Positions 6,651-43,905 of a stretch of DNA of 64,000 nucleotides are shown here, in pieces. A program made the position numbers and the translations under genes. The DNA lies in the NCBI RefSeq assembly GCF_029531655.1, contig NZ_JANRMI010000003.1:186001-250000 (forward strand), read 5' to 3'. The DNA comes from Bdellovibrio svalbardensis (GTDB lineage: Bacteria; Bdellovibrionota; Bdellovibrionia; Bdellovibrionales; Bdellovibrionaceae). The notes beneath the pieces were generated by a model that searched no databases, was not told the DNA's origin, and was given only the letters and a program-made list of their open reading frames with translations. How positions within the stretch are numbered: the stretch's first letter is position 1; every line of letters begins with the position of its first letter.

Positions 6651-6676
6651 GGAATCACCAAATTTTCTTGATTTTT

Positions 6677-6710
6677 GTTAGGACGCTAACTAATATAGTT
6701 AGGTATCTAA
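6677..6710. promoter_or_regulatory. Composite palindromic operator between efflux operon and marR
   Basis: GTTAG-N4-CTAAC at 6677-6690 is followed by a perfect inverted repeat, CTAACTA-ATA-TAGTTAG, at 6686-6702, and then by GTTAG-N4-CTAA at 6698-6710. The half-site CTAAC/GTTAG therefore occurs four times in alternating orientation. It sits between the divergent start codons at 6650 and 6809. A-T-rich palindromes of this size are typical MarR-family operators; binding by the adjacent regulator is inferred. Confidence 0.7.
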
Positions 6711-6808
6711 TTATTGTCAATCTTCGACTTCACATTTGTCCATTTTCAAGATGCGCGGATAATTTATCCGAACCAAATGTAAAATCGAACTCGGAATTGG
6801 AGCCCTCT

Positions 6809-7318
6809 ATGGCTAAATTGTTTCTAACTACTTTGCCCTCCCAAGAAGATATCCAAGCCTCGAGCTGCTCACTTTATCCCGATGCAGATCCGGCGTCACT
6901 TTACACAAATCTACTGTTTCGTAAGGCTGCCACTGACGTTGAAATTCATTACGACAACTACTTTGCAAAGTACGATCTGTCCCCAGGCCGCTTTACCCTA
7001 CTTCTTCTGCTTAAGAAGAAACCTGAAGGCATGATGCCGTCGGAACTCGCACAAAAGGTGGGGGTCACCCAAGCGACGATTTCTGGTCTGATTAACAGCC
7101 TCGAGAAAGCACAACTTGTTGCAAGGGAGACTCATGAAAAAGACGGCCGAGCTTTTGTCATTAAGCTCACTTCCCAAGGTCAGGGTCTTTTGGACAAGAT
7201 CGCACCGGATTGGTACCCACGAGTCATGAAATTCTGGAGTGTGTTTAATGAAGAGGAAAAAAATCTTCTGAATGGCATGCTTGATAAAATGATTCAGAAC
7301 ATTCACTTATTGAAATAA
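6809..7318 (+). CDS. MarR-family transcriptional regulator
   Basis: The product has the MarR winged helix-turn-helix: SRGRFTLLLLL-like helix (here SPGRFTLLLLLKKK), MMPSELAQKVGVTQATISGLINSLEKAQLV as the DNA-reading helices, and the wing ETHEKDGRAFVIKLTSQG. I chose the ATG at 6809 (169 aa) because GGAG lies before it and the residues upstream of it look non-coding and cross the operator region. It is divergent from the efflux operon, the usual arrangement for a ligand-released repressor of a multidrug pump. Confidence 0.88.
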   Translation: MAKLFLTTLPSQEDIQASSCSLYPDADPASLYTNLLFRKAATDVEIHYDNYFAKYDLSPGRFTLLLLLKKKPEGMMPSELAQKVGVTQATISGLINSLEKAQLVARETHEKDGRAFVIKLTSQGQGLLDKIAPDWYPRVMKFWSVFNEEEKNLLNGMLDKMIQNIHLLK

Positions 7319-7384: not shown

Positions 7385-7417
7385 ACTCCGAGCCCAGCTT
7401 AAAATAGAGCTCGGAGT
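7385..7417 (+). promoter_or_regulatory. 5'-leader hairpin covering the ribosome site of the Crp/Fnr gene
   Basis: ACTCCGAGC at 7385-7393 pairs perfectly with GCTCGGAGT at 7409-7417 around a 15-base A-rich loop. The right arm contains the GGAG ribosome-binding site of the gene starting at 7423. If the hairpin is in the mRNA, it would mask initiation. There is no T-tract, so it is not a simple terminator. Confidence 0.5.
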
Positions 7418-7422
7418 GTGCC

Positions 7423-8061
7423 ATGCAAAAGCGACATATAGATAACTGTCCGATCTGTTCCACTCAAGAAGAGGCCGTGACTGAACAAATACTCTCGGTC
7501 ATTCAAAAAAAGAGCTACGCAAAAAACGCCGTGATCTTCGAACCAGAAGAGAACACTCATGGACTTTTTTTGGTTATCAAAGGCAGCGTAAAAATCTCCA
7601 AGATCTCCGCGAATGGAAAAGAAATTGTTCTCGGCTTACTTGGGCCGGGAAAAACATTCGGCGAAAGCAGTTTGCTGGGACAGGATAGACAAGAGGATTC
7701 AGCGACAGCCTCAGAAGCCACGGATTTGCTCTACATTCCGAAAGGAAGTTTTCAGACAATTATTCAACAAAACCCTCAGCTCTATCAATCTGTGGTCGCC
7801 TCACTGGTCAGATGGATGTCCAACCTCAATCAGATCATTGAAAACATCAACACGCCTTCTGCGCGAGACCGTGTTTGGAGCTATCTCTGTCGATTAAAAA
7901 ACGACCAGCCTCATCCGCTCATCCAGCTCGATGGAAAAAAGCATGAAGTTGCTTTGATGCTTGGCTTGCGTCCTGAAACCTTCTCGAGAATTTTATCGGA
8001 CTTGGAAGCTGAAGGAAAAATTAAGATGAACCACCGGCAGATTCAATTTCTTGAGTCCTAA
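7423..8061 (+). CDS. Crp/Fnr-family regulator with FNR-type recognition helix
   Basis: The 212-residue protein has a cyclic-nucleotide-binding-like beta roll (about residues 25-115, with LVIKGSVKISK and GPGKTFGES), a dimer helix and a C-terminal helix-turn-helix, LGLRPETFSRILSDLE. The E..SR pattern in that helix is the one FNR and DNR use to read TTGAT-N4-ATCAA. The N-terminus carries CPIC (Cys9, Cys12), but I do not see the four-cysteine set of a [4Fe-4S] FNR, so direct oxygen sensing is uncertain; it could be a DNR/NnrR-like NO or redox sensor. It lies just upstream of nrdG-nrdD and near nnrS and nirK. Confidence 0.88.
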   Translation: MQKRHIDNCPICSTQEEAVTEQILSVIQKKSYAKNAVIFEPEENTHGLFLVIKGSVKISKISANGKEIVLGLLGPGKTFGESSLLGQDRQEDSATASEATDLLYIPKGSFQTIIQQNPQLYQSVVASLVRWMSNLNQIIENINTPSARDRVWSYLCRLKNDQPHPLIQLDGKKHEVALMLGLRPETFSRILSDLEAEGKIKMNHRQIQFLES

Positions 8062-8083
8062 AGTCACGCCCCCACTAGATGTG

Positions 8084-8097
8084 GTGATGCAAATCAT
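8084..8097. promoter_or_regulatory. FNR/DNR-like box upstream of nrdG
   Basis: GTGAT-GCAA-ATCAT is a two-mismatch match to TTGAT-N4-ATCAA with the inner TGAT/ATCA palindrome intact. It is centred about 72 bases before the nrdG start. Confidence 0.55.
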
Positions 8098-8162
8098 GAT
8101 TCCATACGATTCCTAGTGATTAAATAAAAGCCCTCTCTATTCTTGAAGCATGAGAGGGCACC

Positions 8163-8630
8163 ATGAACATCTACAAGTACGACATCGTTTATCAGGAAGT
8201 TCCCCATCATATTTCTTTGGCGCTTTATGTTTGCGGCTGTCCTTTACAATGCCCCGGTTGTCACTCCCCCGAACTCTGGACTGAAAAAACAGGAACCCCT
8301 CTAACCAGGGAGGGGCTCTTATCTTTGCTCAACAAATATTGTGACCGCATCAGCTGCGTGCTCTTTCTCGGTGGTGAATGGCACGAGCAGGAACTCGTCA
8401 GTCTACTGCAAGTAGCGCGAGAACAAAGTCTTCTCACTGCGCTTTATACGGGATTGGACGTCGTTTCCCCCGAGTTGGAAAAGCATCTGGATTTCTTGAA
8501 GACGGGCCCCTGGCGCCGCGAGCTCGGCGGCTTGGCATCCCCCAACACGAATCAAATCTTTCGAGACCTGCGCAATGGCCAGATTCTCAATCATCTATTT
8601 CAAACTAACAGCAAGGAGACATCTTTATGA
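8163..8630 (+). CDS. nrdG: Anaerobic ribonucleoside-triphosphate reductase activating enzyme
   Basis: This radical-SAM enzyme creates the glycyl radical on NrdD. Cysteines 26, 30 and 33 form the CX3CX2C iron-sulfur motif (CPLQCPGC), and VLFLGGEWHEQEL resembles the SAM-binding GGE segment. At 155 aa it has the typical compact NrdG length. Its stop overlaps the nrdD start (ATGA), so the two are translationally coupled. An FNR-type box lies upstream, consistent with use only without oxygen. Confidence 0.93.
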   Translation: MNIYKYDIVYQEVPHHISLALYVCGCPLQCPGCHSPELWTEKTGTPLTREGLLSLLNKYCDRISCVLFLGGEWHEQELVSLLQVAREQSLLTALYTGLDVVSPELEKHLDFLKTGPWRRELGGLASPNTNQIFRDLRNGQILNHLFQTNSKETSL

Positions 8631-10531
8631 TAAGACTCAGCCCAGAACAAATTCAGAAAAAAATCGACTTCATCAATCACTATAAGGCTGCCGCCAATCC
8701 CGCGGAAGGCTCCAAATTGGATGCCAATGCCAACGTCACACATAAAAACGTGGCGACGCTGGAAGCAGAGATCAACAAAGACATCAACATCCAAATTAAT
8801 CGTGCCTTGGTTGCCAATAAAATCAGTGCCCTTTTTGGTGCGGACTTGGCAAAAGAATATCACCGCCAAATTGAAGAGCATGAAATTTATGTTCATGACG
8901 AAACGTCCCTGAAGCCTTACTGTGCCTCCATCTCCATGTATCCGCTATTACTGGAAGGACTCAAAGGTTTGGGAGGAGAATCCAAAGCACCTCAACATCT
9001 GGAGAGTTTCTGTGGTTGTTTCGTGAATCTGGTTTTTGCGATCTCCTCTCAGTTTGCCGGGGCGGTCGCGACAGTGGAATGGATCATGTACTTCGACCAC
9101 TTCGCGCGCAAAGACTACGGTGATGACTATCTCAAGACACACACCAAAGTAATCAACAATCATTTACAGCATGTGGTCTATGCTTTGAATCAACCTGCGG
9201 CAGCTCGAGGCTATCAGTCGGTATTCTGGAATATTTCTGCTTACGATGAATACTACTTCAACTCTTTGTTCGGCGACTTTGTCTTTCCTGATGGCCAACG
9301 CCCCGTCTGGAAAAGTGTTGAAAGTTTGCAGAATCATTTTATGTCCTGGTTCAATCAAGAGCGAAAAAATGCCATTTTGACTTTCCCCGTGGTGACAGCC
9401 GCCATGTTAGTCGATAAGCAGGGCCCCCGAGATAACGAGTTTGCCCAAATGTGCGCTCGTGAACTCAGTGAGGGCAACAGCTTCTTCATGTATATGAGTG
9501 AATCGGCAGACAGCCTGGCAAGCTGCTGCCGCCTGCGCAATGAAATCTCTGACAACACTTTCAGTTATTCGTTAGGGGCCGGAGGTGTTGCTACCGGATC
9601 GATCAATGTGATTACTATCAACATGAACCGACTTGAGCAAAAAGATATTAGTTTGTCGGAAACCGTTGAGAAAGTTCAAAAATATCAAGTCGCCTATCGC
9701 AGCTTGATGCAGGAGTATCTTGATGCCGGTCTGCTCGGCGCTTATAGCGCAGGGTTCATCTCTTTGGACAAGCAATTTCTGACTATTGGTATCAACGGCA
9801 TGGTTGAGGCTGCGGAATTCGCAGGCTTGGAAATCAAGAACGAAGCTCCATACAAAAATTTTGTCCGTGAAAAACTTAAAGTTATCTTCGACGCCAACAA
9901 GAAGGCTCGTCAGGAATACGGTTTTATGTTCAACACCGAATTTGTTCCCGCCGAAAACTTGGGTGTCAAGAATGCCACTTGGGATCGTAAGGAAGGACTT
10001 TATGTTCCGCGCGATTGTTATAATTCTTACTTCTATGCCGTCGAGAGTGATCAACTCAATTCACTGGATAAAATGGATCTGCATGGGCAGGAGATGATGC
10101 AGTATTTGGATGGAGGCTCGGCCTTGCATTTAAATCTTGATGAGAAGCTGACCCAAGAAGGATTCATGAGGCTTATTCGTGCGGCGGCGATTTCTGGTTG
10201 CAACTATTGGTGTGTGAACATCAAGATCACCATTTGCAATAAGTGTGAACACATCGACAAAAGAACTCTACACCAATGTCAAAAATGCGGCAGCCCCGAT
10301 GTCGATCATGCCACTCGCGTGATTGGTTATCTGAAGAGAATCTCCGCCTTCAGTTCTGCTCGGCAGAAAGAGGCGGCGAAACGCTTCTATCACCCTACGA
10401 CTGTTTCGTCCGTACAATCTTTGGCAAAAACACCCAACCCCAAATCAACAGACCAAGAATCCATGTATAAGCCGCATAAAGCAGATGCGACTGATAGATT
10501 CCAGGAGCAAACCCTGCTGATAAACGCGTGA
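8627..10531 (+). CDS. nrdD: Anaerobic (class III) ribonucleoside-triphosphate reductase
   Basis: Reduces ribonucleotides to deoxyribonucleotides under anoxia using a glycyl radical. Visible signatures are ASCCRLRNE (active-site Cys), the C-terminal zinc site (CNKCEHIDK...CQKCGSPD, two CXXC pairs) and ATRVIGYLKRIS, the glycyl-radical loop at about residue 567. The conserved family sequence ends around RQKEAAKRFYH (about residue 589). The last 45 residues are low-complexity and lie wholly opposite the 3' end of nnrS, so they look like read-through into antisense sequence after loss of an earlier stop. It forms an operon with nrdG. Confidence 0.93.
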   Translation: MIRLSPEQIQKKIDFINHYKAAANPAEGSKLDANANVTHKNVATLEAEINKDINIQINRALVANKISALFGADLAKEYHRQIEEHEIYVHDETSLKPYCASISMYPLLLEGLKGLGGESKAPQHLESFCGCFVNLVFAISSQFAGAVATVEWIMYFDHFARKDYGDDYLKTHTKVINNHLQHVVYALNQPAAARGYQSVFWNISAYDEYYFNSLFGDFVFPDGQRPVWKSVESLQNHFMSWFNQERKNAILTFPVVTAAMLVDKQGPRDNEFAQMCARELSEGNSFFMYMSESADSLASCCRLRNEISDNTFSYSLGAGGVATGSINVITINMNRLEQKDISLSETVEKVQKYQVAYRSLMQEYLDAGLLGAYSAGFISLDKQFLTIGINGMVEAAEFAGLEIKNEAPYKNFVREKLKVIFDANKKARQEYGFMFNTEFVPAENLGVKNATWDRKEGLYVPRDCYNSYFYAVESDQLNSLDKMDLHGQEMMQYLDGGSALHLNLDEKLTQEGFMRLIRAAAISGCNYWCVNIKITICNKCEHIDKRTLHQCQKCGSPDVDHATRVIGYLKRISAFSSARQKEAAKRFYHPTTVSSVQSLAKTPNPKSTDQESMYKPHKADATDRFQEQTLLINA

Positions 10532-11537
10532 ATCCGGCAAATAGAATCAAAAAAGCTCCAAGGCCCAAAGCCTTGGAGTTCTTCTCTATAACCATATCAT
10601 GCCCACCATGAGATAGGCTGACGCGAACTGCGATCATAAAAGTCATGAGAGCTAAACCTGATATAAAAACCACGTGCAAAAGATGAATGCGATAGTTTTC
10701 TAAAAACACCAGCCCCCACTGCCCCAATAGCAACATCCAGGCAGAAGCCCACAAAAAATAAGGTTGAATGGCTTTTCTCTGAGGCACGCGGTGAATTTTC
10801 CAGAACAAAGCAAAAATCAAGGTGACCACGATCGCTCTAAGCAGGTTTCCTAACCAAGGCTGCACCCATACTTCAAGAATATAGCTCACCATGAAAGCCG
10901 CTGCCAAAAGCACAAACAACCTCAACTGAGATGACCGTTCTTTCTTTTCTGTTGGCAGCGGGGCCCATCCCAAAAGAGCGGGAATCAACCGACTTCCAAC
11001 TCCTAATACTAAGTACAGAATATACACTTGCAAAAACAGCAACCGACCAAACTGATAGATATCGGAGGGAAGATTATAAAATTCCTGTAGCGACATCAGA
11101 GCACTGCCAATCAGTCCTGAAAGCAGTCCAAAGCCCACAAAGATAAATGAATCCGGTGGATTTGATTTCCGATTCTTGAAACGTCGAAACATAAAAGCAA
11201 TCAGAAAAAGAAAAGTCGCATCGACTGCCAGAAAAAATATCAGTCGCTGCGGACTAAACAATGATAGAAAAAGAGCGCCAATCAGCGACCATGAAATTCT
11301 TTGCTCAAAGCCGGTTGGACCAAAACTGGAGGTAAACTTTGGCGCGGCAGTCATCAAAAAGCCACATACAAAGCATAAAAAGAAACCGCCCATCATAATT
11401 TCGGGATGACGAATCCCCGGATAAGACACCAGATTCCACGGAAAAAGAATCCACAGCATCACGCCCCAGATGCCCATAAGCCAACCCGCTGGAAAGAAGT
11501 ATCTATAAGCATCTATTTGTTGTTGTCCTGATTTCAT
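10395..11537 (-). CDS. nnrS: NnrS-family heme/copper membrane protein, nitric oxide response
   Basis: A polytopic inner-membrane protein with about 12 hydrophobic segments. The signature HPEIMMGGFFLCFVCGFL with TAAPKFTSS next to it is characteristic of NnrS, which protects against NO stress in denitrifiers. I chose the ATG at 11537 (380 aa) because CAGGAG lies 7 bases upstream; the open frame extends 20 codons further but over the regulatory boxes. The 3' end overlaps nrdD by 137 bases in convergent orientation. Two FNR/DNR-type boxes lie upstream, one centred 53 bases before the start. Confidence 0.88.
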   Translation of the reverse strand: MKSGQQQIDAYRYFFPAGWLMGIWGVMLWILFPWNLVSYPGIRHPEIMMGGFFLCFVCGFLMTAAPKFTSSFGPTGFEQRISWSLIGALFLSLFSPQRLIFFLAVDATFLFLIAFMFRRFKNRKSNPPDSFIFVGFGLLSGLIGSALMSLQEFYNLPSDIYQFGRLLFLQVYILYLVLGVGSRLIPALLGWAPLPTEKKERSSQLRLFVLLAAAFMVSYILEVWVQPWLGNLLRAIVVTLIFALFWKIHRVPQRKAIQPYFLWASAWMLLLGQWGLVFLENYRIHLLHVVFISGLALMTFMIAVRVSLSHGGHDMVIEKNSKALGLGAFLILFAGFTRLSAGFAPGIYQSHLLYAAYTWILGLLIWGWVFLPKIVRTKQS

Positions 11538-11583
11538 CGCGTACTCCTGTGATACATCCTGCCCTAGGGCGCCCCCCTTCAAC

Positions 11584-11597
11584 ATGACCGTGATCAA
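11584..11597. promoter_or_regulatory. FNR/DNR-like box upstream of nnrS
   Basis: Read on the minus strand it is TTGAT-CACG-GTCAT, with one perfect half-site and one degenerate half-site. Its centre is about 53 bases before the nnrS ATG, the same spacing as at several other genes here. Confidence 0.55.
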
Positions 11598-11612
11598 TAA
11601 ATGCTAAATAAA

Positions 11613-11626
11613 TTGATCGGGATCAT
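11613..11626. promoter_or_regulatory. FNR/DNR-like box upstream of the second Crp/Fnr gene
   Basis: TTGAT-CGGG-ATCAT matches TTGAT-N4-ATCAA at 9 of 10 defined positions. It lies in the divergent gap between nnrS and the regulator gene and is about 55 bases before the ATG at 11675. Confidence 0.65.
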
Positions 11627-11674
11627 GTCGGAAAGGGAATTTTCATGAAATTCTTCCAGATAGAGGTTACTCCC

Positions 11675-12427
11675 ATGCACGATATTAATAACTTATTGAG
11701 AAACCTGGATCTTTTTCGCGGCCTATCAGAAAGAGAGATGAAAAAAATATCTCCCTATCTGGAGGTCGTGCATGTTCCCAATAAACAGATGGTCTTCCTC
11801 AAAGGTGAGCCCATTGAAAATATATTCCTGATTTTATACGGCTCCGTCAAAATTCAGGAAACCTTGGATAAGAGAACCACCAAGATCTTTAACTTTCTCA
11901 CCCAGAAAGAATTTCTGGGCGTTGCTATGGCAGGTCTACCTCAACCTCGTTATCCCGCCTGTGCTCAAAGCAATGAAGACAGCACCTTATTAAAAATTCC
12001 ACTGCATTTGTTCTTCAATGTACTTATCAAGATCCCTGAAATCCGCCAGGCTGTCGCGCAACAGATCTCTGAGAGATTTTTAGAATTTCAAAATGACCTT
12101 TGCCGGGCACAGAAACTTGCCCCCTATCGAATTGCTGACTTTCTGCTTCGCCTGCTGGATCGCCAAGGTTCGTCCAGTCATGGGCGCATCGTAATTCCTT
12201 TATCACGTTCTGACATTGCCGATCGTGTTGGCGTTCAAAGTGAGACCGTCATACGCATACTCAGCAATTGGACAAAACGTGGACTCATCAGAACACAGGA
12301 TCATCATATTGAGATCTTAAACCGTCAGAATTTACTGGAGGTGCGACGTGAACGTCCTTCTAAAAAAGCTTCGCGAGGAGCATCAGATGATTCTGCAGAT
12401 GATAGATGCAAACGAGGACATCTTTAA
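11675..12427 (+). CDS. Second Crp/Fnr-family regulator
   Basis: The protein has a cupin-like sensor domain (LDLFRGLSEREMKKISPYLEV, then FLKGEPIENIFLILYGSVKIQ), a long dimer helix and the helix-turn-helix VGVQSETVIRILSNWTKRGLI. The recognition helix has E..IR, close to but not the same as the FNR E..SR. Chosen start: ATG at 11675 (250 aa), with GAGG upstream and the box at the usual distance; ATG at 11645 (AAGGGA upstream) is the alternative. The last 27 codons overlap the hemerythrin-like gene and look like a tail. NO sensing of the DNR/NnrR kind is inferred from context only. Confidence 0.82.
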   Translation: MHDINNLLRNLDLFRGLSEREMKKISPYLEVVHVPNKQMVFLKGEPIENIFLILYGSVKIQETLDKRTTKIFNFLTQKEFLGVAMAGLPQPRYPACAQSNEDSTLLKIPLHLFFNVLIKIPEIRQAVAQQISERFLEFQNDLCRAQKLAPYRIADFLLRLLDRQGSSSHGRIVIPLSRSDIADRVGVQSETVIRILSNWTKRGLIRTQDHHIEILNRQNLLEVRRERPSKKASRGASDDSADDRCKRGHL

Positions 12428-12863
12428 GATCATTCATTTCGTCGAAAACGTACATCATCCGCGGGAAGAACAGCAGCTTTTTCCTTTAGTGGCACAAAGT
12501 CCACTCTTGCGCCAAGGCGGACCTTTATGCACTTACTTCAAAGGGATAGAACTTGATTTAAATCCACTGTCAGCCGCACGCAAACATCTTGCTGACCTTT
12601 ATCAACAAGGCTGTCCACACCCTGAAGACTATCCGGATTTTCAGTGGCTCAATTCACAGAGCCCTCTCAGTATGCCGATGAATGAGCATCAGTTGGGGCA
12701 TGAATTGGCAGCAGCACTCAACTTCTTGAGTTCCAATCAGGAATCTTCCCTTTATAAAATATTCTTTTCTAAGATTTCAGAAGAGTATAAGAAATTACTT
12801 AAGGCCCACATAGACAAAGAGGATCACTGCCTCTTTGTCATATGTGAAAGAATTCTGGATTAA
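12348..12863 (+). CDS. Hemerythrin-like (HHE) diiron protein
   Basis: The 171-residue helical protein carries histidine/acid pairs spaced as in hemerythrin HHE domains: REEHQMI near the N-terminus, VHHPREEQQLFP, NEHQLGHE and AHIDKEDHCLF at the C-terminus. These can bind an oxygen- or NO-reactive diiron centre; related proteins (DnrN/YtfE, Hemerythrin-NnrR neighbours) repair iron-sulfur clusters or bind NO. The start is GTG at 12348 with a perfect GGAGG 6 bases upstream, inside the 3' end of the Crp/Fnr gene, so translation is coupled. It ends 4 bases into the convergent DUF2249 gene. Confidence 0.85.
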   Translation: MNVLLKKLREEHQMILQMIDANEDIFKIIHFVENVHHPREEQQLFPLVAQSPLLRQGGPLCTYFKGIELDLNPLSAARKHLADLYQQGCPHPEDYPDFQWLNSQSPLSMPMNEHQLGHELAAALNFLSSNQESSLYKIFFSKISEEYKKLLKAHIDKEDHCLFVICERILD

Positions 12864-13200: not shown

Positions 13201-13812
13201 TTAAGGCAAAAATTTAATCAGATCCTTAGGATTTCCACCGGCTCCCACTTGCTTACCGCGAATCACACCTTCCTTATCCAGGACACTAATAACAAAGGAA
13301 TGATCGTAGTCACCACCTTCAACCTTCTTGTACTTAATGCCCAGAAGATTTGCGATCTCACGAGGCTCCTTGTCGGAATGAGAGGTCAAAAGACTCCAGC
13401 GCTCGCTGAGTTTTTTCTTCGCGGCGAAGTCAGACAGAACTTTTGGCGTATCTTTTTTAGGATCAAAACTTACCAAAACAAAATGGACATCTGTTTTTCC
13501 CGCCTCGACCAGTGCCTTTTCAATCTGCTGCATTTGCGCGACTATCAAAGGGCAAGTGTAAGTGCAGCTGGTATAAGCCATGGATATCACAACGGGCTGA
13601 CCGCGGAACATTTTTAAAGATACCGATTTCCCATCTTTATCGAGAAGTTCTGAATTCAAATTATAAATAGATTCATCGTTCAGATTGTCCGCGGCGGCGG
13701 CAACGGCGGGCTTATTAGTGGCCCCCTGATGATGTTCGTGAGTTTTCGCATTTGCACTGTGAATCCAAATCACCGCAGACATCAAACTTAAAACCATTTT
13801 TGGTATTTTCAT
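13201..13812 (-). CDS. SCO1/SenC-family copper chaperone, thioredoxin fold
   Basis: A secreted or membrane-anchored protein (signal at residues 1-22) with the SCO signature: MAYTSCTYTCPLIVAQM contains the CX3C copper-binding pair (about Cys85/Cys89), and GGDYDHSFVISVLD holds the later copper-ligand His. The mature N-terminus has a His-rich stretch (KTHEHHQG). It follows the NirV-like gene by 8 bases and is third in the nirK operon, which suggests that it loads copper into the nitrite reductase. A role in cytochrome oxidase assembly is the usual alternative. Confidence 0.9.
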   Translation of the reverse strand: MKIPKMVLSLMSAVIWIHSANAKTHEHHQGATNKPAVAAAADNLNDESIYNLNSELLDKDGKSVSLKMFRGQPVVISMAYTSCTYTCPLIVAQMQQIEKALVEAGKTDVHFVLVSFDPKKDTPKVLSDFAAKKKLSERWSLLTSHSDKEPREIANLLGIKYKKVEGGDYDHSFVISVLDKEGVIRGKQVGAGGNPKDLIKFLP

Positions 13813-13820
13813 AACGGCTC

Positions 13821-14612
13821 CTATTTCTCAGCATTCTTTTCTGTATTTAACTCAACAATATCTTTGGCGCAGCGGAAACCCAAATTTTGAACCGTGTAAC
13901 GGGCTTGCAAACTGCTTCTAAATGCAAATCTCATGAAGGCTGCATAGTCCGAAGGGTCCGCAGCGCCAGATGCGCCGGCACCACAAAATAAATTTTTATC
14001 CAAACTTCCATCCGCCCGGGACTCCCCGGTCACCAATGAAGAATTGAAATCTTCAACCCATTCCCAAATCACGCCATGCATATCGTAAACCCCCAGGCTG
14101 TTGAGGGATTTCTTTTTTACGACGGGCAATGGCCATTCCGTTCCCTTGCCGTACCATTCTAAAATCACGGACTTTATATCACCCTGATTTTTTAACGGTG
14201 CGGAAGCGACATACTCCCATTCGTTGATTGAAGGCAGGCGTTTCCCAACCCACTGGCAATAAGCTCGAGCCGCATACCAACTTACTTGGACGGCTGGAGA
14301 CTGTGGCAGTGCCACCTTGCCAAAATCATCATCCCGTTTCCAATAGTTCAGGTAACTGGCATCAGCGAAAATCTTCTTCACCCGCGATTTGCGCCACTCG
14401 GGAACAGCTTTTACAAATTCCAGGTACTCACGGTTCGTTACGGCATGTTCATCAATCTGAAATGAGGCGACGGCGATACTTTTCTTATTCAGTACCGCCG
14501 GCATCTTAAACTCCCCTGCTGGTACCGGTACCAATTCCTTGGCACTGGTACAGAGAGGACTTACCAGAAGGAAGAAAAGTGCTAATTTTCGAATATCAAA
14601 ATTGATGCTCAT
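13821..14612 (-). CDS. nirV: NirV-like protein, formylglycine-generating-enzyme (SUMF1) fold
   Basis: The product has a signal peptide (MSINFDIRKLALFFLLVSPLCTSA) and the SUMF1 fold markers: VPAGEFKM, QIDEHAVTNREYLEFV, QVSWYAARAYCQWVGKRLPS with NEWEYVA, and NLGFRCAKD at the end. It is unlikely to modify sulfatases here: a SUMF1-type gene, nirV, is a known partner of nirK in some denitrifiers. It lies between nirK (18 bases away) and SCO1. The symbol is assigned from fold and position, not from alignment. Confidence 0.78.
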   Translation of the reverse strand: MSINFDIRKLALFFLLVSPLCTSAKELVPVPAGEFKMPAVLNKKSIAVASFQIDEHAVTNREYLEFVKAVPEWRKSRVKKIFADASYLNYWKRDDDFGKVALPQSPAVQVSWYAARAYCQWVGKRLPSINEWEYVASAPLKNQGDIKSVILEWYGKGTEWPLPVVKKKSLNSLGVYDMHGVIWEWVEDFNSSLVTGESRADGSLDKNLFCGAGASGAADPSDYAAFMRFAFRSSLQARYTVQNLGFRCAKDIVELNTEKNAEK

Positions 14613-14630: not shown

Positions 14631-16049
14631 TTACTTTTTACCGGCCGCGCGCACGGCTTTCACTTCTTCAGGAGTTACAACTTTTTTCGAGTTGCCCCAC
14701 ATACTGTAGACATAAGTCAAAACGTTTGCGGCATCTTCATCTGACAGCAATTGCGCTGGCATCACTGAGTTGAATTCTTTGCCGTTAACTTTGACTGGGC
14801 CTTCCAAACCGTGAATGACGGCTGAGATCGCTTTGTCTTTATTCTTATTCAAGAAATCAGAACCAGCAAGCGGAGGGAAGGCGCCCGGAAGACCTTGGCC
14901 ATTGCTTTGATGGCAGGCAAAACATGAAGTATCAAAGATACGTTTACCGCCAGCTAAGCGTTCTTCCAAGTTTTTCGCTGGAACCTGCTTAGGAGCTTCG
15001 GCTCCCATCTCTTGAATGACACCGCCTTCAGGCTGATAAATGCCGTCTGCAGTTTTACCAGAGTAGATTTCTTTATTTTCTTCGCCCTCAACTTTTATCA
15101 TTCCCAACGCTCCTTTATTGAAGGCACGGAAGATAGAATGGTCCACGAGGATCAAAGTTGAAGCTCTCTGAGTTTTGAATTCCACGATGGCAGAGCCGCC
15201 CGCAGGAATCAAAGTTGTCTGAACGTTTTCGTTCACAAGTTTACCGCCCTCAACATAGACCTTATCGAAAATCTCCCCGATCACATGGAAGGAAGATACA
15301 AGATTGGGTCCACCGTTACCGACAAACAAACGAATTGAGTCGCCCACTTTCGCTTTCAATGCTTTATCGCCAGTGATGGCTCCGACATTACCGTTGAAAA
15401 CGACATAGTCCGCTTTTTCCTCAACTGCTTTTGCCATGCTGAAAGGCTGCAAGCCTGGGGCTCCGTATTTTCCTTTTGTATAGAACTCACTTTGCATCAC
15501 ATAGAATTCACGATCGACTTTAGGAAGACCGTCTTTAGGTTCGACCAAAATCAAACCATACATTCCATTACCGATATGCATACCCACGGGGGCAGTCGCA
15601 CAGTGATAAACATAAAGACCAGCGTTCAATGCTTTAAAATTGAAAGTTGAGCTATGCCCTGGCGCTGTGAATGAGCCTTCCGCTCCCCCGCCCTGTCCAG
15701 TTACTGCGTGCAAGTCGATATTATGCGGCAATTTGCTGGATGGATGGTTGTGCAGATGGAACTCCACCTGATCTCCCTCTCTGATACGAATGAACTTACC
15801 TGGCACTTTTCCGCCAAAGGTCCAAAAAGTATAATCCACGCCGTCAGCCAAGCGCATCTTCACTTCTTTAGTTTCCAGATTCACGATCACTTTAGTTGAA
15901 TGTTTGCGAGTGATTGGTGGCGGAACTTCAGGCGCATCAGTCAGTACTGCGACTTCTTCACCTTTGATCGCATCCGCGGCATTCACGGTCGCCGGCAAGA
16001 GGCCAGCAAGCACAATTAACAATGCATTCTTGTAATTCCAAAATTTCAT
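14631..16049 (-). CDS. nirK: Copper nitrite reductase (NirK) with fused C-terminal cytochrome c
   Basis: Reduces nitrite to nitric oxide in the periplasm. After a signal peptide (cleaved near VNA/ADA) come two cupredoxin domains with every copper ligand: [10 protein letters not shown] (type 1 His, Asp, type 2 His), [17 protein letters not shown] (type 2 His, type 1 Cys, His, Met), SSFHVIGE and VDHSIFRAF (type 2 His and catalytic His). A monoheme cytochrome c (CFACH at about residue 373, distal Met near SVMPAQ) is fused at the C-terminus, as in the three-domain Ralstonia-type enzyme. The ATG at 16049 (472 aa) has AAGGAG before it; the longer frame to 16103 lacks one. First gene of nirK-nirV-sco. 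Confidence 0.95.
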
Positions 16050-16193
16050 AACGTTTCTCCTTAGAAGATATTGGGACGATATCATAATCGGACAAAAAAG
16101 CATGGGCTCCTATGATGGCCGTCAGTATTAACAAGATTTTTGCTCTTTTAAACCCCGGTGGGACACTCCCTCGGGCGTCAAAAGTCCTCAAAC

Positions 16194-39090: not shown

Positions 39091-41028
39091 TTATAGTAGC
39101 GGCAACAGCAAGCTCGTCAAGGCCTCGGGCAGTTTATGCGGATTAGGTAAAATCTGAATATTCGCAGCGCCAAACATTTGTGGCAGATAGAACTTGGCCT
39201 TCTCGTCTATGGCAAGGCATTTGACTTGGACTTTCTGTTGCTGAGCCTCGCGCAAAGCTTGCTTAATATCCTCCATGCCATATCTGCCTTCGTACTGATC
39301 ATAATCGGAGGCCTTCCCATCACTCAGAAGAATGATGATCTTGTGGCGAGCTGAAGATTCCTGCAGTAGCTCCACACCGTGGCGAAGTGCTGGCCCAATC
39401 CGCGTGTAACCTTCTGGCTCCAAGTCATTAAGATGTTGCTTCAAATGATGCCAAGAATGTTGAAAGCTCTTCATTTCATCATAGACGCAATGATGACGGG
39501 TGTTGCTGTGAAAGGCCGCGACACTCACACATCTTTCTTCCTGAATAAGTGCGTCCGCAATCAGACATACGCTGTTTTTAATAACATCCAAAACTCGTTC
39601 ATTGGCAACCCAGGAATCGGTGGAAAGACTGCTATCGATCAAAAGAAGGCACTGCCACTCTTTCAGGCCCTTTTGTTTGCGCATATAAAAGCGATCTTCC
39701 GAAGAATTTCCACTTTTCAAATCGGCATGCCGAACCACCAAAGAATCCAAATCCAACTCGGTGCCGTCTTTTTGCCGTTTCTTCCAAAGAGGCTGATGAC
39801 GAACCTGTTCAAAGAGCTTCTGCATGTCACGTTTTTCTTTGGCGTAGCTATCTTGCAATTGAAATGGCGGAACTTCACTTTTTCTGTTCCAAGCCTCAAT
39901 ACGACACCAGTCCTTTCTATAGGACTTGGTTTTGAAATCCCATTCCGGATACAGAAACACCTGGGAAGAATCTGAATCTGACAAGTTCCGACTGAGCATA
40001 TCGGGTATACCCGCATTGATGCGAATGTCAGCTTTATAGATGGAATTTGTTCGTTCCTGACTTCGCACCACTTCCCGCAGTTTCAGCTCTTCCAAAGCCT
40101 CTGCATGATCAGCCAGATGATCGTCGCCATCCTGAGTCCGCATTCCTCCTTGATATTCCTCTAAGGTTTCAACCTTCTCAAAGGTGTGCATAACGGGATT
40201 GCTCTCATCCCCGGCTTTAGCCAATTGAACGGTCACAACTTCTTCGCGATTTTTCCCTTGAATCTCGGTTCCATTTGCCAACGCCTCGGCACTCAATGGG
40301 TCTTCGCCATTTTCGATTGAATTTTGCAAAGTCCCCGGAGCCATCAAAACGCCCCATAACACGAAGGCCTGCTCCGGAAGAGCCCGGCCCACAGGCAGGG
40401 GCGCCACATGGGTTTTATAAACGGCTTCAGCAAAGCTCCAAAAATCTACCTGACTCTTGTGATCGCAATTAAGAATATTTTGCCATGGGCTGCTGACGTT
40501 GCCACTCAAGATCTGATCTATCCACTCGGCGATCAAGCCATTCTGTGTGTTCCGGTCTTGCTTCAGTAAAATCTGCAATTCTGTTCTTATCTGCTTTCCA
40601 AGGACTTCCAAAACCTGGGCCGCACTTGAAAATTCGTGGTGAATATACTGATAGATCTGATAAAGAGCGAGACAGGTATAGACTTCCCTCTCGATCTTCG
40701 AAAGCCCCGCCACTGGCAAGGAAAATCCCAAATGTTTGGCTGAGCTGTTAAATAAAGTCCTTTGAATATAAATCGACTCGTTCATCGATTTGGAATTAAA
40801 GAGGCACAAAGATTTCGGATAGTAAAAATGCTCCCCCGAAAATCCTCCCATGGTTTCAGCTTCAAGAATTTGAATTGATTTTCCACACAGAGATTTCGCA
40901 ATAAATTGCAGTCGAGACTCGAGTTCACTCAGTTCCGCACGCTGATCATAATAAACCGGCTTTGGCTCTGCGGTGAATTTTTTAAAAAGGCGATGGCCAA
41001 AGGCAAAAAGCGCCTCATCAAAGCTCAT
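39091..41028 (-). CDS. norD: Nitric oxide reductase activation protein NorD
   Basis: Needed with NorQ to assemble active nitric oxide reductase. The 645-residue cytoplasmic protein has a helical N-terminal region, an acidic middle (DGDDHLADHAEALEEL) and a C-terminal VWA domain with LLIDSSLSTDSW (DxSxS MIDAS) and IIILLSDGKASDY. The order norC-norB-norQ-norD on the minus strand is the classic operon; it starts 4 bases after norQ. It has normal length for the family. Confidence 0.93.
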   Translation of the reverse strand: MSFDEALFAFGHRLFKKFTAEPKPVYYDQRAELSELESRLQFIAKSLCGKSIQILEAETMGGFSGEHFYYPKSLCLFNSKSMNESIYIQRTLFNSSAKHLGFSLPVAGLSKIEREVYTCLALYQIYQYIHHEFSSAAQVLEVLGKQIRTELQILLKQDRNTQNGLIAEWIDQILSGNVSSPWQNILNCDHKSQVDFWSFAEAVYKTHVAPLPVGRALPEQAFVLWGVLMAPGTLQNSIENGEDPLSAEALANGTEIQGKNREEVVTVQLAKAGDESNPVMHTFEKVETLEEYQGGMRTQDGDDHLADHAEALEELKLREVVRSQERTNSIYKADIRINAGIPDMLSRNLSDSDSSQVFLYPEWDFKTKSYRKDWCRIEAWNRKSEVPPFQLQDSYAKEKRDMQKLFEQVRHQPLWKKRQKDGTELDLDSLVVRHADLKSGNSSEDRFYMRKQKGLKEWQCLLLIDSSLSTDSWVANERVLDVIKNSVCLIADALIQEERCVSVAAFHSNTRHHCVYDEMKSFQHSWHHLKQHLNDLEPEGYTRIGPALRHGVELLQESSARHKIIILLSDGKASDYDQYEGRYGMEDIKQALREAQQQKVQVKCLAIDEKAKFYLPQMFGAANIQILPNPHKLPEALTSLLLPLL

Positions 41029-41031
41029 AAG

Positions 41032-41820
41032 TTAAAATATCATGGCAGCCACGTCCCGCAGGGCTATCATGACATCTCCATCATCTGTAAGAGGTTGTAT
41101 GATGGCCACATCACATGCCAAGCGCGCCTCCAGGCCGTCCCTCATAAGTTTACCAGCATCAACCAGAAGCCGAGTGGATGCGGTTTCAGTCAATCCCAAC
41201 TCTTTGAGGTTGCGAATTTTATGACCGAACTTCACTAGTTTTTTTGCGATCTCAAGAGAGCACTGCGCTTCCTTGCTGACAATCTCGGTTTCAAGCTCTG
41301 CCTTGGGATAGTCAAAGTGTATGGCGACAAATCTTTGCCGCGTCGAAGGCTTTAATTCCTTCAGTCCTTTTTGATATCCGGGATTGAAACTCACGATCAA
41401 CATAAATTCCGGAGAGGCTTTAATTTCTTCGTTGCGCTTATCCAAAGTGATTGTACGCCGATGATCCGTGAGAGGATGCAAGACCACGATGACGTCTTCC
41501 CGAGCCTCTGAAATTTCATCTAAATAAAGTATCGCGCCCTCACGCAAAGCGCGTGTCACTGGGCCATCCTGCCAAACCGTATCCCCCCCTTGAATGAGAT
41601 ACCGCCCAAGTAAATCCGTTGCCGACGTGTCTTCATTGCAAGCAACAGAAATAAGTGGGCGGCCCAATCTTGCCGCCATGGCCTCAACAAATCTCGACTT
41701 TCCACAACCTGTTGGCCCCTTGAGCATCAAAGGAAGACAATTTCGATAAGCACATTGAAGCACTAACTCTTCGTCGCCAACAGCTTCATAGTAAGGATAT
41801 TTAATTTGTGGCTTTAGCAT
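41032..41820 (-). CDS. norQ: NorQ/CbbQ-type AAA+ ATPase
   Basis: The MoxR-type AAA+ ATPase for NO-reductase maturation. Walker A (GPTGCGKSRFVEA), the NorQ-typical SVACNEDTSATDLLGRYL, Walker B (ILYLDEISEA) and MLIVSFNPGYQKGLKELKPSTRQRF (sensor and arginine-finger region) are all present. The 262-aa length is normal. The start overlaps the norB 3' end by 20 bases, so translation is coupled. It acts with NorD to insert the non-heme iron or otherwise activate NorB. Confidence 0.95.
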   Translation of the reverse strand: MLKPQIKYPYYEAVGDEELVLQCAYRNCLPLMLKGPTGCGKSRFVEAMAARLGRPLISVACNEDTSATDLLGRYLIQGGDTVWQDGPVTRALREGAILYLDEISEAREDVIVVLHPLTDHRRTITLDKRNEEIKASPEFMLIVSFNPGYQKGLKELKPSTRQRFVAIHFDYPKAELETEIVSKEAQCSLEIAKKLVKFGHKIRNLKELGLTETASTRLLVDAGKLMRDGLEARLACDVAIIQPLTDDGDVMIALRDVAAMIF

Positions 41821-43144
41821 GTTCTATTTTTCCTTTGGGAGGTCCATACTTAATAAATATCCAAATAAACGCGAAGATTCCGAGACTGAATAAGGCCGCC
41901 GCAAGTACCAATCCTAAAAAGTGGACCTGAATTTCCTTTTGCACCAAAAGAAAATCCATTCCCATACGCCGCTCTAAATAAACTTGTGCAATCCCCGCCA
42001 CACCAAACGCCAAGGTCATCGCCACCATACCAATATTCGAAGCCCAAAAGGCAAAGACGCTCCAGCCACTGTCAAAGAGCTTTCGGCCCGTCAAATTCGG
42101 AAGTGCGTAGGCAATCATCGCAAAGATCAACATCGCATAAGCACCCCAGAACGCTAAATGTCCATGCATCGCAGTGACCAAGGTTCCATGAGTGTAGATA
42201 TTCACCTGTGGCAGAGTGTGCGCGAATCCAAGAAATCCCGCCCCTACAAAGGACATCACAGCGCAGCCGATGGTCCAAGTCAGAGCCAGTTTATTGGGAT
42301 GTTGTCGTCCGCCTTTTTTAGCCATCGCAATCGCATACATCGCCATGCCAAGGAAAGCGAGGGGCTCTAGAGCACCAAAGATTCCACCAATCATCAGCCA
42401 ATAACGAGGAGTCCCGATGAAATAGTAGTGATGGCCCGTCCCAAGAATTCCCGACAAGAACGTGAAACCCACGATGACATAGAGCCATTTTTCAATGATC
42501 TCGCGATCGACCCCCGTCAATTTAATCAACAAGAAGCTAAGAATCGCGCCCATGATCAACTCCCAAACCCCCTCAACCCACAGATGCACAACCCACCATC
42601 TCCAGTAGGAATCCATGGTTTGATTTGTCGTAGGAATCATGCCCGGAAGATAAAGAAGAGCGGCACTTAACAAACCGAAAAAGAGCACCATGCTCGTGGT
42701 GCTATATCTTTTGCCCTTCCAAATAGTTCCACCGATCAGGAAAATGAACAGCAAGACGTCGACGACCACCAAATAGTCCAAGGGACGTGGAATCTCCAAG
42801 AACTTACGACCTTCCCACCAGTTAAAATGAAACCCGATAATTGCCGTAACTCCCACAGCAACAAAAGCCCCGAGCTGCACCAACGCCAATTTAGGAAAAA
42901 TAAGATCACGGCCGGATTCTTCGGGAATAATGTAGTATGCAGACCCCATGAACCCCGCCAAGAGCCACATCACCAAAAGATTGGTGTGCGTCGCCCGAGC
43001 GGTATGGAAGGGTATGATACTGTGAAGATTGTCATACCCCATGTGGGCGAATCCCATGATGAAGCCATAAACAATCTGCAGCGTTAGCAGCAACATACAC
43101 ACGGCGAAAAAATAATATGCAATTTTTTGTGTTTTAAATTTCAT
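41801..43144 (-). CDS. norB: Nitric oxide reductase large subunit NorB (cNOR)
   Basis: Reduces two NO to N2O in the inner membrane. The 12-helix heme-copper-oxidase fold is visible with its histidine ligands: IPFHTARATHTNLLVMWLL, VVHLWVEGVWELIMG (FeB His and Glu), GTGHHYYFIG (two FeB His) and MHGHLAFWGAYAML (heme b and b3 His). The length (447 aa) is normal for cytochrome c-dependent NorB; there is no N-terminal quinol-type extension. It follows norC by 10 bases. Confidence 0.96.
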   Translation of the reverse strand: MKFKTQKIAYYFFAVCMLLLTLQIVYGFIMGFAHMGYDNLHSIIPFHTARATHTNLLVMWLLAGFMGSAYYIIPEESGRDLIFPKLALVQLGAFVAVGVTAIIGFHFNWWEGRKFLEIPRPLDYLVVVDVLLFIFLIGGTIWKGKRYSTTSMVLFFGLLSAALLYLPGMIPTTNQTMDSYWRWWVVHLWVEGVWELIMGAILSFLLIKLTGVDREIIEKWLYVIVGFTFLSGILGTGHHYYFIGTPRYWLMIGGIFGALEPLAFLGMAMYAIAMAKKGGRQHPNKLALTWTIGCAVMSFVGAGFLGFAHTLPQVNIYTHGTLVTAMHGHLAFWGAYAMLIFAMIAYALPNLTGRKLFDSGWSVFAFWASNIGMVAMTLAFGVAGIAQVYLERRMGMDFLLVQKEIQVHFLGLVLAAALFSLGIFAFIWIFIKYGPPKGKIEHAKATN

Positions 43145-43154
43145 GACGGAGCCC

Positions 43155-43853
43155 TTACTTCAACTGTGAAAGGAAATTTGCTAACTCTTGAACCTGTTCA
43201 TCTGTGAGGGGCAGCTTCGGCATTTTTGAATCTGCCTTGACTGCCAGCGGATCTTTTAGCCAGGACACTAAGAAATCATGATTACGACGATTTCCCACAC
43301 CATCCAGTACGGGGCCGACGGCTCCACCTTTCCCCTGAAGAGCATGGCAAGCCACGCATACTTGATCGAAAACAGCGGGTTTCGTTGGCAGTGGCAGTTC
43401 TGAAAGCTGTGCGGTGTTTGCTGTCGGCGCCGCAGGAACTAGATCCGGTTTTTTAGGGAAGCCATTAAGGTCTACTTCTCCGATCCACTTTAAAAATGCG
43501 ACCAAGGAATCAATCTCGGTTTCTGTGAAATTATACTTTTGCATGTTCCTTTGCCCCGGGAACATGGCTTGAGGATCCTTTAACATGGACTTAATGAAAA
43601 TCGGCCCTCGACGTTCATAGACCTTAGTTAACTCCGGAGCATAATAAGCTCCCTCGCCCATAATAGTGTGACACCCCATACAGTTGTTATGATCCCACAG
43701 ATCCTTTCCGTGAATGACTTCGGGAGTGATATTTTCAGCATGACTTTGCTGCGGCACCTTTTGGACAGTATCTACAGTCAACAAGACGAAACAACCTGAA
43801 CAAACAACCGTACCAATAAGAAAGAACTTCTTCGCGGCTGACTTTGATAACAT
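43155..43853 (-). CDS. norC: NorC subunit with an extra C-terminal cytochrome c domain (diheme)
   Basis: An N-terminal membrane anchor (about residues 8-28) is followed by the NorC heme motif NNCMGCHTIMGEGAYYAPELTKVY (CXXCH at about residue 57), with RNMQKYNFTETEIDSLVAFLKWI as the rest of the domain. A linker (PAAPTANTAQ) leads to a second c-type domain with VCVACHALQGKGGAVGP (CXXCH at about residue 166) and MPKLPLTDEQVQELANFLS. Usual NorC is about 150 aa with one heme; this is 232 aa with two. AAGGAG precedes the ATG, and an FNR-type box lies about 59 bases upstream. Confidence 0.93.
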   Translation of the reverse strand: MLSKSAAKKFFLIGTVVCSGCFVLLTVDTVQKVPQQSHAENITPEVIHGKDLWDHNNCMGCHTIMGEGAYYAPELTKVYERRGPIFIKSMLKDPQAMFPGQRNMQKYNFTETEIDSLVAFLKWIGEVDLNGFPKKPDLVPAAPTANTAQLSELPLPTKPAVFDQVCVACHALQGKGGAVGPVLDGVGNRRNHDFLVSWLKDPLAVKADSKMPKLPLTDEQVQELANFLSQLK

Positions 43854-43905
43854 GGAGACTCCTTTAAATATAACTGGATATTAATCAGGAAGAAGCCCTA
43901 TAAAA

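Follow-up and report, generated by a model that had tools for sequence, protein, structure and literature searches.

The norC gene of the window (the whole 64,000-nucleotide stretch of DNA analyzed here) encodes the small subunit of a nitric oxide reductase, a NorC with two heme motifs, hereafter two-heme NorC. In this protein a linker joins a canonical membrane-anchored cytochrome c domain to another class I cytochrome c domain at the C-terminal end. This second domain is probably a tethered electron donor that takes the place of a free carrier, a reading in which heme attachment, docking, the direction of electron flow and alternative complex III (ACIII) as the partner are all predicted from sequence. 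The N-terminal part of the protein would be ordinary, a membrane anchor with a heme c that feeds NorB, and a flexible linker of ~25 residues would hold the second domain in the periplasm. A quinol-oxidising complex, most likely ACIII in the window's genome, would reduce the heme of domain 2, which would then move to the docking face of NorC, the one used by a soluble cytochrome or azurin in other denitrifiers, and pass electrons via heme 1 of NorC to NorB. Textbook cNOR schemes make NO reduction dependent on a diffusing cytochrome or azurin. Should the tethered donor be real, the gene for a soluble donor would be no guide to NO reduction in many uncultured denitrifiers, and NO reduction may couple directly to a quinol-oxidising complex.

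Architecture of the Two-Heme NorC

The norC reading frame (232 amino acids, 43155..43853, minus strand) runs from an ATG at 43853 to 43155, with a ribosome-binding-site-like AAGGAG read directly from the sequence 5 bases upstream (43859..43864, minus strand); the plus strand across 43155-43853 is full of stops. It was identified from the frame and its translation, a match to Pseudomonas aeruginosa NorC (3o0r_C) and two Pfam cytochrome c assignments. All the parts described below lie on the minus strand. An N-terminal helix at residues 4-36 (43746..43844), H4-36 in the AlphaFold2 model, aligns with the membrane anchor of 3o0r_C. The first, canonical cytochrome c domain spans residues 43-133 (43455..43727) according to Pfam, the 3o0r_C match and structure comparison, and contains the heme motif CMGCH at residue 58 (43668-43682) and a candidate ligand, Met104 (43542-43544). 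A linker rich in Ala, Pro, Thr and Ser across relatives (residues 134-158, 43380..43454), modeled with low pLDDT, leads to the second domain at residues 159-232 (43158..43379), delimited by Pfam, the AlphaFold2 model and structure comparison, with the heme motif CVACH at residue 166 (43344-43358) and Met211 (43221-43223) as candidate ligand. The length of the protein and the position of CVACH are as given by an earlier sequence-only reading of this DNA.

Two stretches of the protein match Pfam Cytochrom_C (E 1.4e-20), and residues 160-228 match Cytochrome_CBB3 (E 4.9e-12). Residues 3-134 resemble 3o0r_C (E 7.6e-27) and residues 2-132 the NorC of R. denitrificans, 4xyd_B (E 1.7e-15). The sequence-only reading had placed the second CxxCH in a domain of its own, which the Pfam match at 160-228 and the two-domain model bear out, and had proposed structure prediction as a check; the AlphaFold2 model, built from a 29-row alignment (mean pLDDT 83.9), consists of two confidently folded domains on either side of a low-confidence stretch in which pLDDT falls below 50 at residues 140-148. 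On structure comparison, residues 2-136 superimpose on 3o0r_C (Z 12.1, 134 residues) and residues 156-232 on SoxX 1h32_B (Z 10.6, rmsd 1.8 Å, 77 residues), and the structural matches of the latter segment are single-heme class I cytochromes. In the model, residues 156-232 are a separate class I cytochrome c domain behind a low-confidence linker.

The nor Operon and the Class of the Enzyme

norC is the first gene of a compact and intact norCBQD operon that extends from 43853 to 39091. It is followed by norB, encoding the catalytic subunit of 447 amino acids (41801..43144, minus strand; COX1 family), norQ, encoding an AAA+ ATPase of 262 amino acids with a CbbQ/NirQ/NorQ C-terminal domain (41032..41820, minus strand; CbbQ_C E 2.4e-30), and a gene for a VWA-domain protein of 645 amino acids (39091..41028, minus strand; VWA E 7.1e-10) that is named norD from its position and domain. 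NorB matches 3o0r_B with E 8.1e-111, and the WWVVHLWVEGVWE, GTGHHY and LEPL blocks with their conserved His and Glu residues align. We take the letters in these blocks to be the ligands of heme b, heme b3 and FeB together with conserved glutamates. With NorB blocks that align, an anchored NorC fold containing CxxCH and Met, and norQ and norD linked to norCB, the locus is assigned as a cNOR-type, cytochrome c-dependent NO reductase, with predicted NO to N2O activity.

Other identities were also considered. A qNOR does not fit, norC and norB being separate genes and NorC having two CxxCH motifs. CcoP and CcoO profiles score far below their cut-offs on NorC (TIGR00782, 20.7 bits vs 179.95; TIGR00781, 23.6 bits vs 200.65), and Pfam FixO exceeds its cut-off (33.6 vs 29.6) over part of the model only. 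Domain 2 also just passes the SoxX profile TIGR04485 (61.1 bits vs 61), a likeness of the domain only, as the N-terminal half is NorC; automatic annotation could therefore label a two-heme NorC as a sulfur-oxidation cytochrome SoxX.

Conservation and Distribution

Both CxxCH motifs and a downstream Met-Pro/Ala, the candidate Met ligand, are kept in 57 of 57 distinct two-heme NorCs, a set that leaves out the duplicate loci L048-L059, L063 and L066. In the 29-row alignment C58, C61, H62 and M104 of domain 1 and C166, C169, H170, M211 and P212 of domain 2 are invariant. Among four close relatives dN is 0.12-0.17 for domain 2 vs 0.07-0.13 for domain 1 (most pairs have reached saturation in dS, and we make no statement on dN/dS). 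The complete retention of both motifs and the slow change of domain 2 exclude chance as the source of the two-heme form. Together with the kept Met, they also speak against a second domain that is free of heme, cleaved off or an NO sensor, alternatives that we consider very improbable; His/Met coordination of heme is a feature of electron carriers, and an NO sensor would be expected to leave the coordination site open.

If domain 2 is a tethered donor, is it fixed or mobile? The linker is the fastest-changing part of the protein (dN 0.42-0.82 among the four close relatives) and varies in length from 15 to 32 amino acids, with a median of 24 (55 proteins). Its variability and low model confidence favor a mobile tethered carrier over a fixed arrangement, and the internal electron wire to NorB proposed by the sequence-only reading is upheld as regards the presence of a second heme c module, but not as a fixed wire.

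NorC was detected (E < 1e-30) in 36 of 368 Bdellovibrionota genomes, with two heme motifs in 28 (29 copies) and one in eight. The one-heme genomes include G084, where norC lies in two pieces on separate contigs (L060, L061). At family level (66 genomes), two-heme NorC occurs in 17, one of which carries two, and one-heme NorC in G057. A scan of a genome collection yielded 581 confirmed NorC relatives, and the best 80 of the 581 comprise 29 two-heme and 51 one-heme loci; these were ranked by likeness to the window's NorC and so describe spread, not frequency in other phyla. Three of these 29 two-heme loci bear Bdellovibrionales titles, two of them contigs already counted in the phylum. The other 26 are titled to Planctomycetota, Myxococcota, other 'Deltaproteobacteria', Verrucomicrobia, Spirochaetia, Leptospiraceae, Sericytochromatia, Acidimicrobiales, Bacteroidota, Gemmatimonadetes or plain 'bacterium', and as all are MAGs, single taxonomic assignments may be wrong. 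Among cultured Burkholderiales, Aquabacterium olei and Eleftheria terrae each have a plasmid that encodes a NorC of 290 amino acids. The A. olei protein has two CxxCH motifs, and that of E. terrae is 74.5% identical to it over its whole length. Of 243 NorC-like plasmid records, 2 match the Aquabacterium protein along 80% or more of its length.

Two-heme NorC is a recurring variant of cNOR and no one-off. The sequence-only reading had set it apart from the usual one-heme protein, a rarity that does not survive its presence in 28 of the 36 NorC-bearing Bdellovibrionota genomes and at loci titled to other groups. That reading also allowed that such a protein might prove common and already described: it is common in certain lineages, but no description was found in the searchable literature.

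Origins of the Fusion

On a NorB tree of 78 rows the one-heme and two-heme states require at least four changes. The tree was made by a quick method with SH-aLRT support only, and duplicates, NorB pieces shorter than 250 amino acids and two thirds of the Bacteroidota loci were left out. A single clade of all two-heme NorCs is rejected (AU p 0.0053), and it is still rejected once two outliers (L026 and L139), the A. olei and Gemmatimonadetes rows, are removed (AU p 0.0151), the groups tested having been chosen in part after the tree was seen. In searches of a small private database, second domains of the main group match that of the window with E 6e-12 or better, the A. olei domain with E 1e-4 over 24 aligned residues and the Gemmatimonadetes domain with E 0.28. 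The AU rejection and the poor match of these two outliers make it likely that NorC was fused at least twice and that the main group has seen additional gains or losses, and the NorC of the A. olei and E. terrae plasmids is probably a separate fusion.

What was the source of the second domain? It is nearest to the first domains of NorC, with 34% identity to its own and up to 39% to those of relatives; the NirK cytochrome (29%) and those of c4, CcoO, CcoP and ActE all fall below NorC first domains, in a comparison that excluded the genome's own caa3 subunit II domain. Elsewhere in the phylum, a cytochrome that forms part of a fusion with a cytochrome b-like protein (G107, L173) is 45% identical to residues 141-232. 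These comparisons do not distinguish a duplicated domain 1 from a captured free class I cytochrome as the origin.

Similar domains were also seen in other proteins. Two loci of family f12 (L172, L174) encode a protein of ~945 amino acids with a TM-like N-terminus, eight CxxCH motifs and a C-terminal part resembling NorC domain 2. In G147 (contig C6, ~179-183 kb) the eight-CxxCH protein is encoded ~3 kb from a cytochrome b gene, and the f12 protein may be part of an unusual bc complex. Three further loci (L176, L178, L023) encode proteins of 277-285 amino acids with a C-terminal cytochrome c domain like NorC domain 2 and an N-terminal part that is perhaps molybdopterin-binding.

Free Electron Donors

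Is a free electron donor retained beside a two-heme NorC? Within Bdellovibrionota, a gene for a free, signal-bearing single-heme cytochrome lies next to norC in five of the eight one-heme genomes vs one of the 29 two-heme copies (Fisher p 0.0007, kinship ignored; four of the five one-heme cases belong to one clade). The neighbor is c551-like in G071, G076, G077 and G147 and of another type in G084. That an adjacent free cytochrome is nearly excluded at two-heme loci fits replacement of the donor better than a docking module. The single exception, G130, has a two-heme NorC and an adjacent c551-like cytochrome and so counts against a tethered donor. An adjacent free cytochrome was found at 3 of 51 one-heme loci among the best 80 of 581, and one-heme Bacteroidota, which mostly lack one too, likewise count against it. 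Adjacency of a cytochrome to one-heme norC is no general rule.

The locus in G084 (L060, contig C94, 1-1978) is unfused, with a one-heme norC cut at the contig edge, a divergent gene for a free cytochrome c of 128 amino acids and a nirK of 374 amino acids without cytochrome, and is a natural contrast to the fused NorC and NirK of the window. Bdellovibrionota as a whole offer such a comparison, between one-heme NorC with a neighboring free cytochrome and two-heme NorC without one.

In genome-wide searches with the free cytochrome of G121 as query, itself from a one-heme genome, the best match in most two-heme genomes is their own NorC domain 2, and seven of the eight one-heme genomes give non-NorC frames of 122-166 amino acids; on the two-heme side a small non-NorC frame appears only in G012 (153 amino acids). 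Frames of 233-235 amino acids were returned from G020 and G021, also two-heme genomes. With domain 2 of the window's NorC as query, NorC is the best match in 28 of 28 two-heme genomes. Further small frames came from two-heme G012 (153 amino acids), G014 (165), G237 (99) and G130 (a 29-amino-acid piece at a contig edge), and from one-heme G121, G084, G057 and G077; those in G012, G014 and G237 are a point against the tethered donor.

Two Pfam searches of the window's genome (16 and 14 matches) returned no class I cytochrome in an open frame of 170 amino acids or less, and a c551-like donor is absent at E 0.01. The respiratory class I matches are anchored or fused: we take them to be a CcoO fused to CcoN, a CcoP-like subunit, an ActE-like protein beside ActF, ActD, ActC and ActB, NirK and NorC, and a caa3 operon presumably supplies a membrane-tethered cytochrome and a fused subunit II. 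Several larger two-heme proteins have the look of peroxidases or lipoproteins. No plastocyanin/azurin-family cupredoxin was matched in this genome, in a search of low sensitivity, since the weak match of NirK itself went unlisted too. The genome is apparently without a small free class I cytochrome or cupredoxin donor. The suggestion of the sequence-only reading that the extra heme may replace a soluble donor gains comparative support from this and from the adjacency contrast.

As a separate observation, contig C2 of this genome (L182) encodes a cbb3 CcoN and CcoO that are apparently fused (7401-9521, 706 amino acids, one CxxCH) and a CcoP-like subunit of 185 amino acids with a single heme motif (6675-7232).

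The clearest candidate for a free donor in the window's genome is, we assume, a c4-like two-heme cytochrome. It could be the free donor of NorC, a point against a tethered one, and its retention would suit a second domain that still needs a free cytochrome and either stores electrons or docks NirK so as to limit the escape of NO. The c4-like gene does not lie near nor; it adjoins the gene of what we take to be a TsdA-like two-heme protein, and this position, like the missing free cytochrome beside two-heme norC, argues against a storage or docking role. Contacts between NirS and NorC in Pseudomonas and Paracoccus, reported in PMC6872814, lend docking some support. We think such a role unlikely and retain the tethered donor as the favored reading.

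ACIII and bc Complex as Candidate Partners

Which complex would reduce the second heme? In the window's genome (G000) no bc-type cytochrome b was found, and ACIII is present. In R. marinus, electrons pass directly from ACIII to the cytochrome domain of the caa3 oxidase, as reported in PMC5928083. In Flavobacterium johnsoniae ACIII is the sole electron source of the aa3 oxidase, and ActA has an extra mobile heme domain that the oxidase lacks, according to PMC8552683; R. marinus is described as the reverse, with the extra heme domain on the oxidase side (PMC5928083 and PMC8552683).

Such reciprocity, with one-heme NorC accompanied by a six-heme ActA, was rejected within the phylum, where ActA has five hemes in both groups. 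Five CxxCH motifs were counted in ActA of six of six readable one-heme genomes and nine of ten readable two-heme genomes, the tenth having four in the frame as called (16 readable of 20 fetched genomes, out of 36 with NorC). A strong ActF match places ACIII in eight of eight one-heme and 24 of 28 two-heme NorC genomes. With ACIII equally common in both groups, which tells against the tethered donor, and a five-heme ActA in both, ACIII does not select for the fusion. Cytochrome b (PF00033) occurs in five of eight one-heme vs two of 28 two-heme genomes; a bc complex as opposed to ACIII was dropped as a predictor of the NorC form because all five one-heme cases belong to family f12.

A broader possibility, which we put forward tentatively and think may well not hold, is a carrier-free branch of denitrification, in which, in Bdellovibrionota and other groups, quinol oxidation and NO reduction take place in one membrane assembly and a soluble cytochrome was captured into NorC at least twice. 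If true, the assembly would work as a quinol:NO oxidoreductase and could do without a diffusing carrier, with electrons in the window's genome passing from ACIII to heme 2 of NorC, heme 1 and NorB.

The NirK Fusion and Its Neighbors

The window also encodes a NirK of 490 amino acids with a C-terminal cytochrome c domain (14631..16103, minus strand). It scores 358.9 bits on TIGR02376 (cut-off 296.3), and its Cytochrom_C domain covers residues 385-469 with the heme motif CFACH; the cytochrome fusion claimed by the sequence-only reading was thus correctly seen. Beside nirK lie what we take to be a SCO1/SenC-like gene (13201-13812, minus strand) and a sulfatase-modifying-factor-like gene (13821-14612, minus strand), and a similar gene order after nirK was seen in G057 (L053). 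Positions 7423-12863 have an anaerobic look, presumably with two CRP/FNR-like regulators and a hemerythrin-like protein, the activase and large subunit of an anaerobic ribonucleotide reductase (8163-10531) and an NnrS-like membrane protein (10395-11597).

NirK exceeds its cut-off in 28 of the 36 NorC genomes (25 of 28 two-heme, three of eight one-heme), and 27 of the 28 best NirK genes encode a C-terminal CxxCH, the exception being G084. The fusion is real and already published: NirK with a C-terminal class I heme domain is known from Burkholderia, Ralstonia, Bdellovibrio and 39 further sequences, as set out in PMC4770552.

Could the second heme of NorC be a branch point or exit, passing electrons on to a different reductase of the periplasm, for instance the NirK with its fused cytochrome? 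The frequency of NirK in two-heme genomes and the presence of nirK in the same window would allow this, and the extra heme of CcoP in Neisseria gonorrhoeae serves the nitrite reductase AniA, as described in PMC8552683. The window's NirK, however, has a cytochrome c of its own through which it could receive electrons directly. Three genomes with two-heme NorC, G065, G312 and G228 (the last 61% complete), have no full NirK match, and a fused NirK accompanies one-heme NorC in G057 and G071. We judge a branch point improbable, and the tethered donor remains the preferred account. The sequence-only reading had suggested that both enzymes may be built to accept electrons directly; with G057 and G071 in view, there is no sign that the two fusions belong together as a matched design.

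Comparison With Known Systems

No description of a two-heme NorC was found in the open-licence full-text literature, and an earlier account may exist elsewhere. The closest known enzymes are the cNORs of P. aeruginosa (3o0r) and R. denitrificans (4xyd), which resemble that of the window in NorB, the N-terminal domain of NorC, its anchor and heme site and the norCBQD order, but whose NorC chains of 146 and 150 amino acids have no second heme domain, the match ending at residue 134 of the window's NorC. The A. olei and E. terrae plasmids share a C-terminal second CxxCH domain in a NorC encoded ahead of norB, norQ and a VWA gene, but their linker is longer and their second domain contains an insert.

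In other enzyme families the same principle is met in different hosts. The caa3 oxidases also tether a cytochrome c domain to the electron-entry subunit of a heme-copper enzyme; subunit II 2yev_B matches NorC domain 2 weakly (E 0.0013), but the rest of the subunit is unrelated, being a CuA protein of an enzyme that reduces O2. The cbb3 subunits CcoP and CcoO, and CcoO-cytochrome c fusions, likewise are anchored subunits with at least two class I hemes, but the partner of the window's NorC is NorB and not CcoN (PRK14486, 30.9 vs cut-off 447). In the NirK-cytochrome fusion the host is an unrelated copper nitrite reductase. QcrC of the actinobacterial bc1-aa3 supercomplexes, where it replaces a soluble cytochrome, also has two cytochrome c domains in one anchored subunit, and 7e1v_O and 7q21_C match NorC weakly; QcrC, however, is a subunit of the donor-side bc1 complex, and NorC scores 55.8 on NF050122 (cut-off 200). 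As far as the searched literature goes, two-heme NorC is new, and it is of the same kind as caa3, CcoP and the NirK-cytochrome c fusion.
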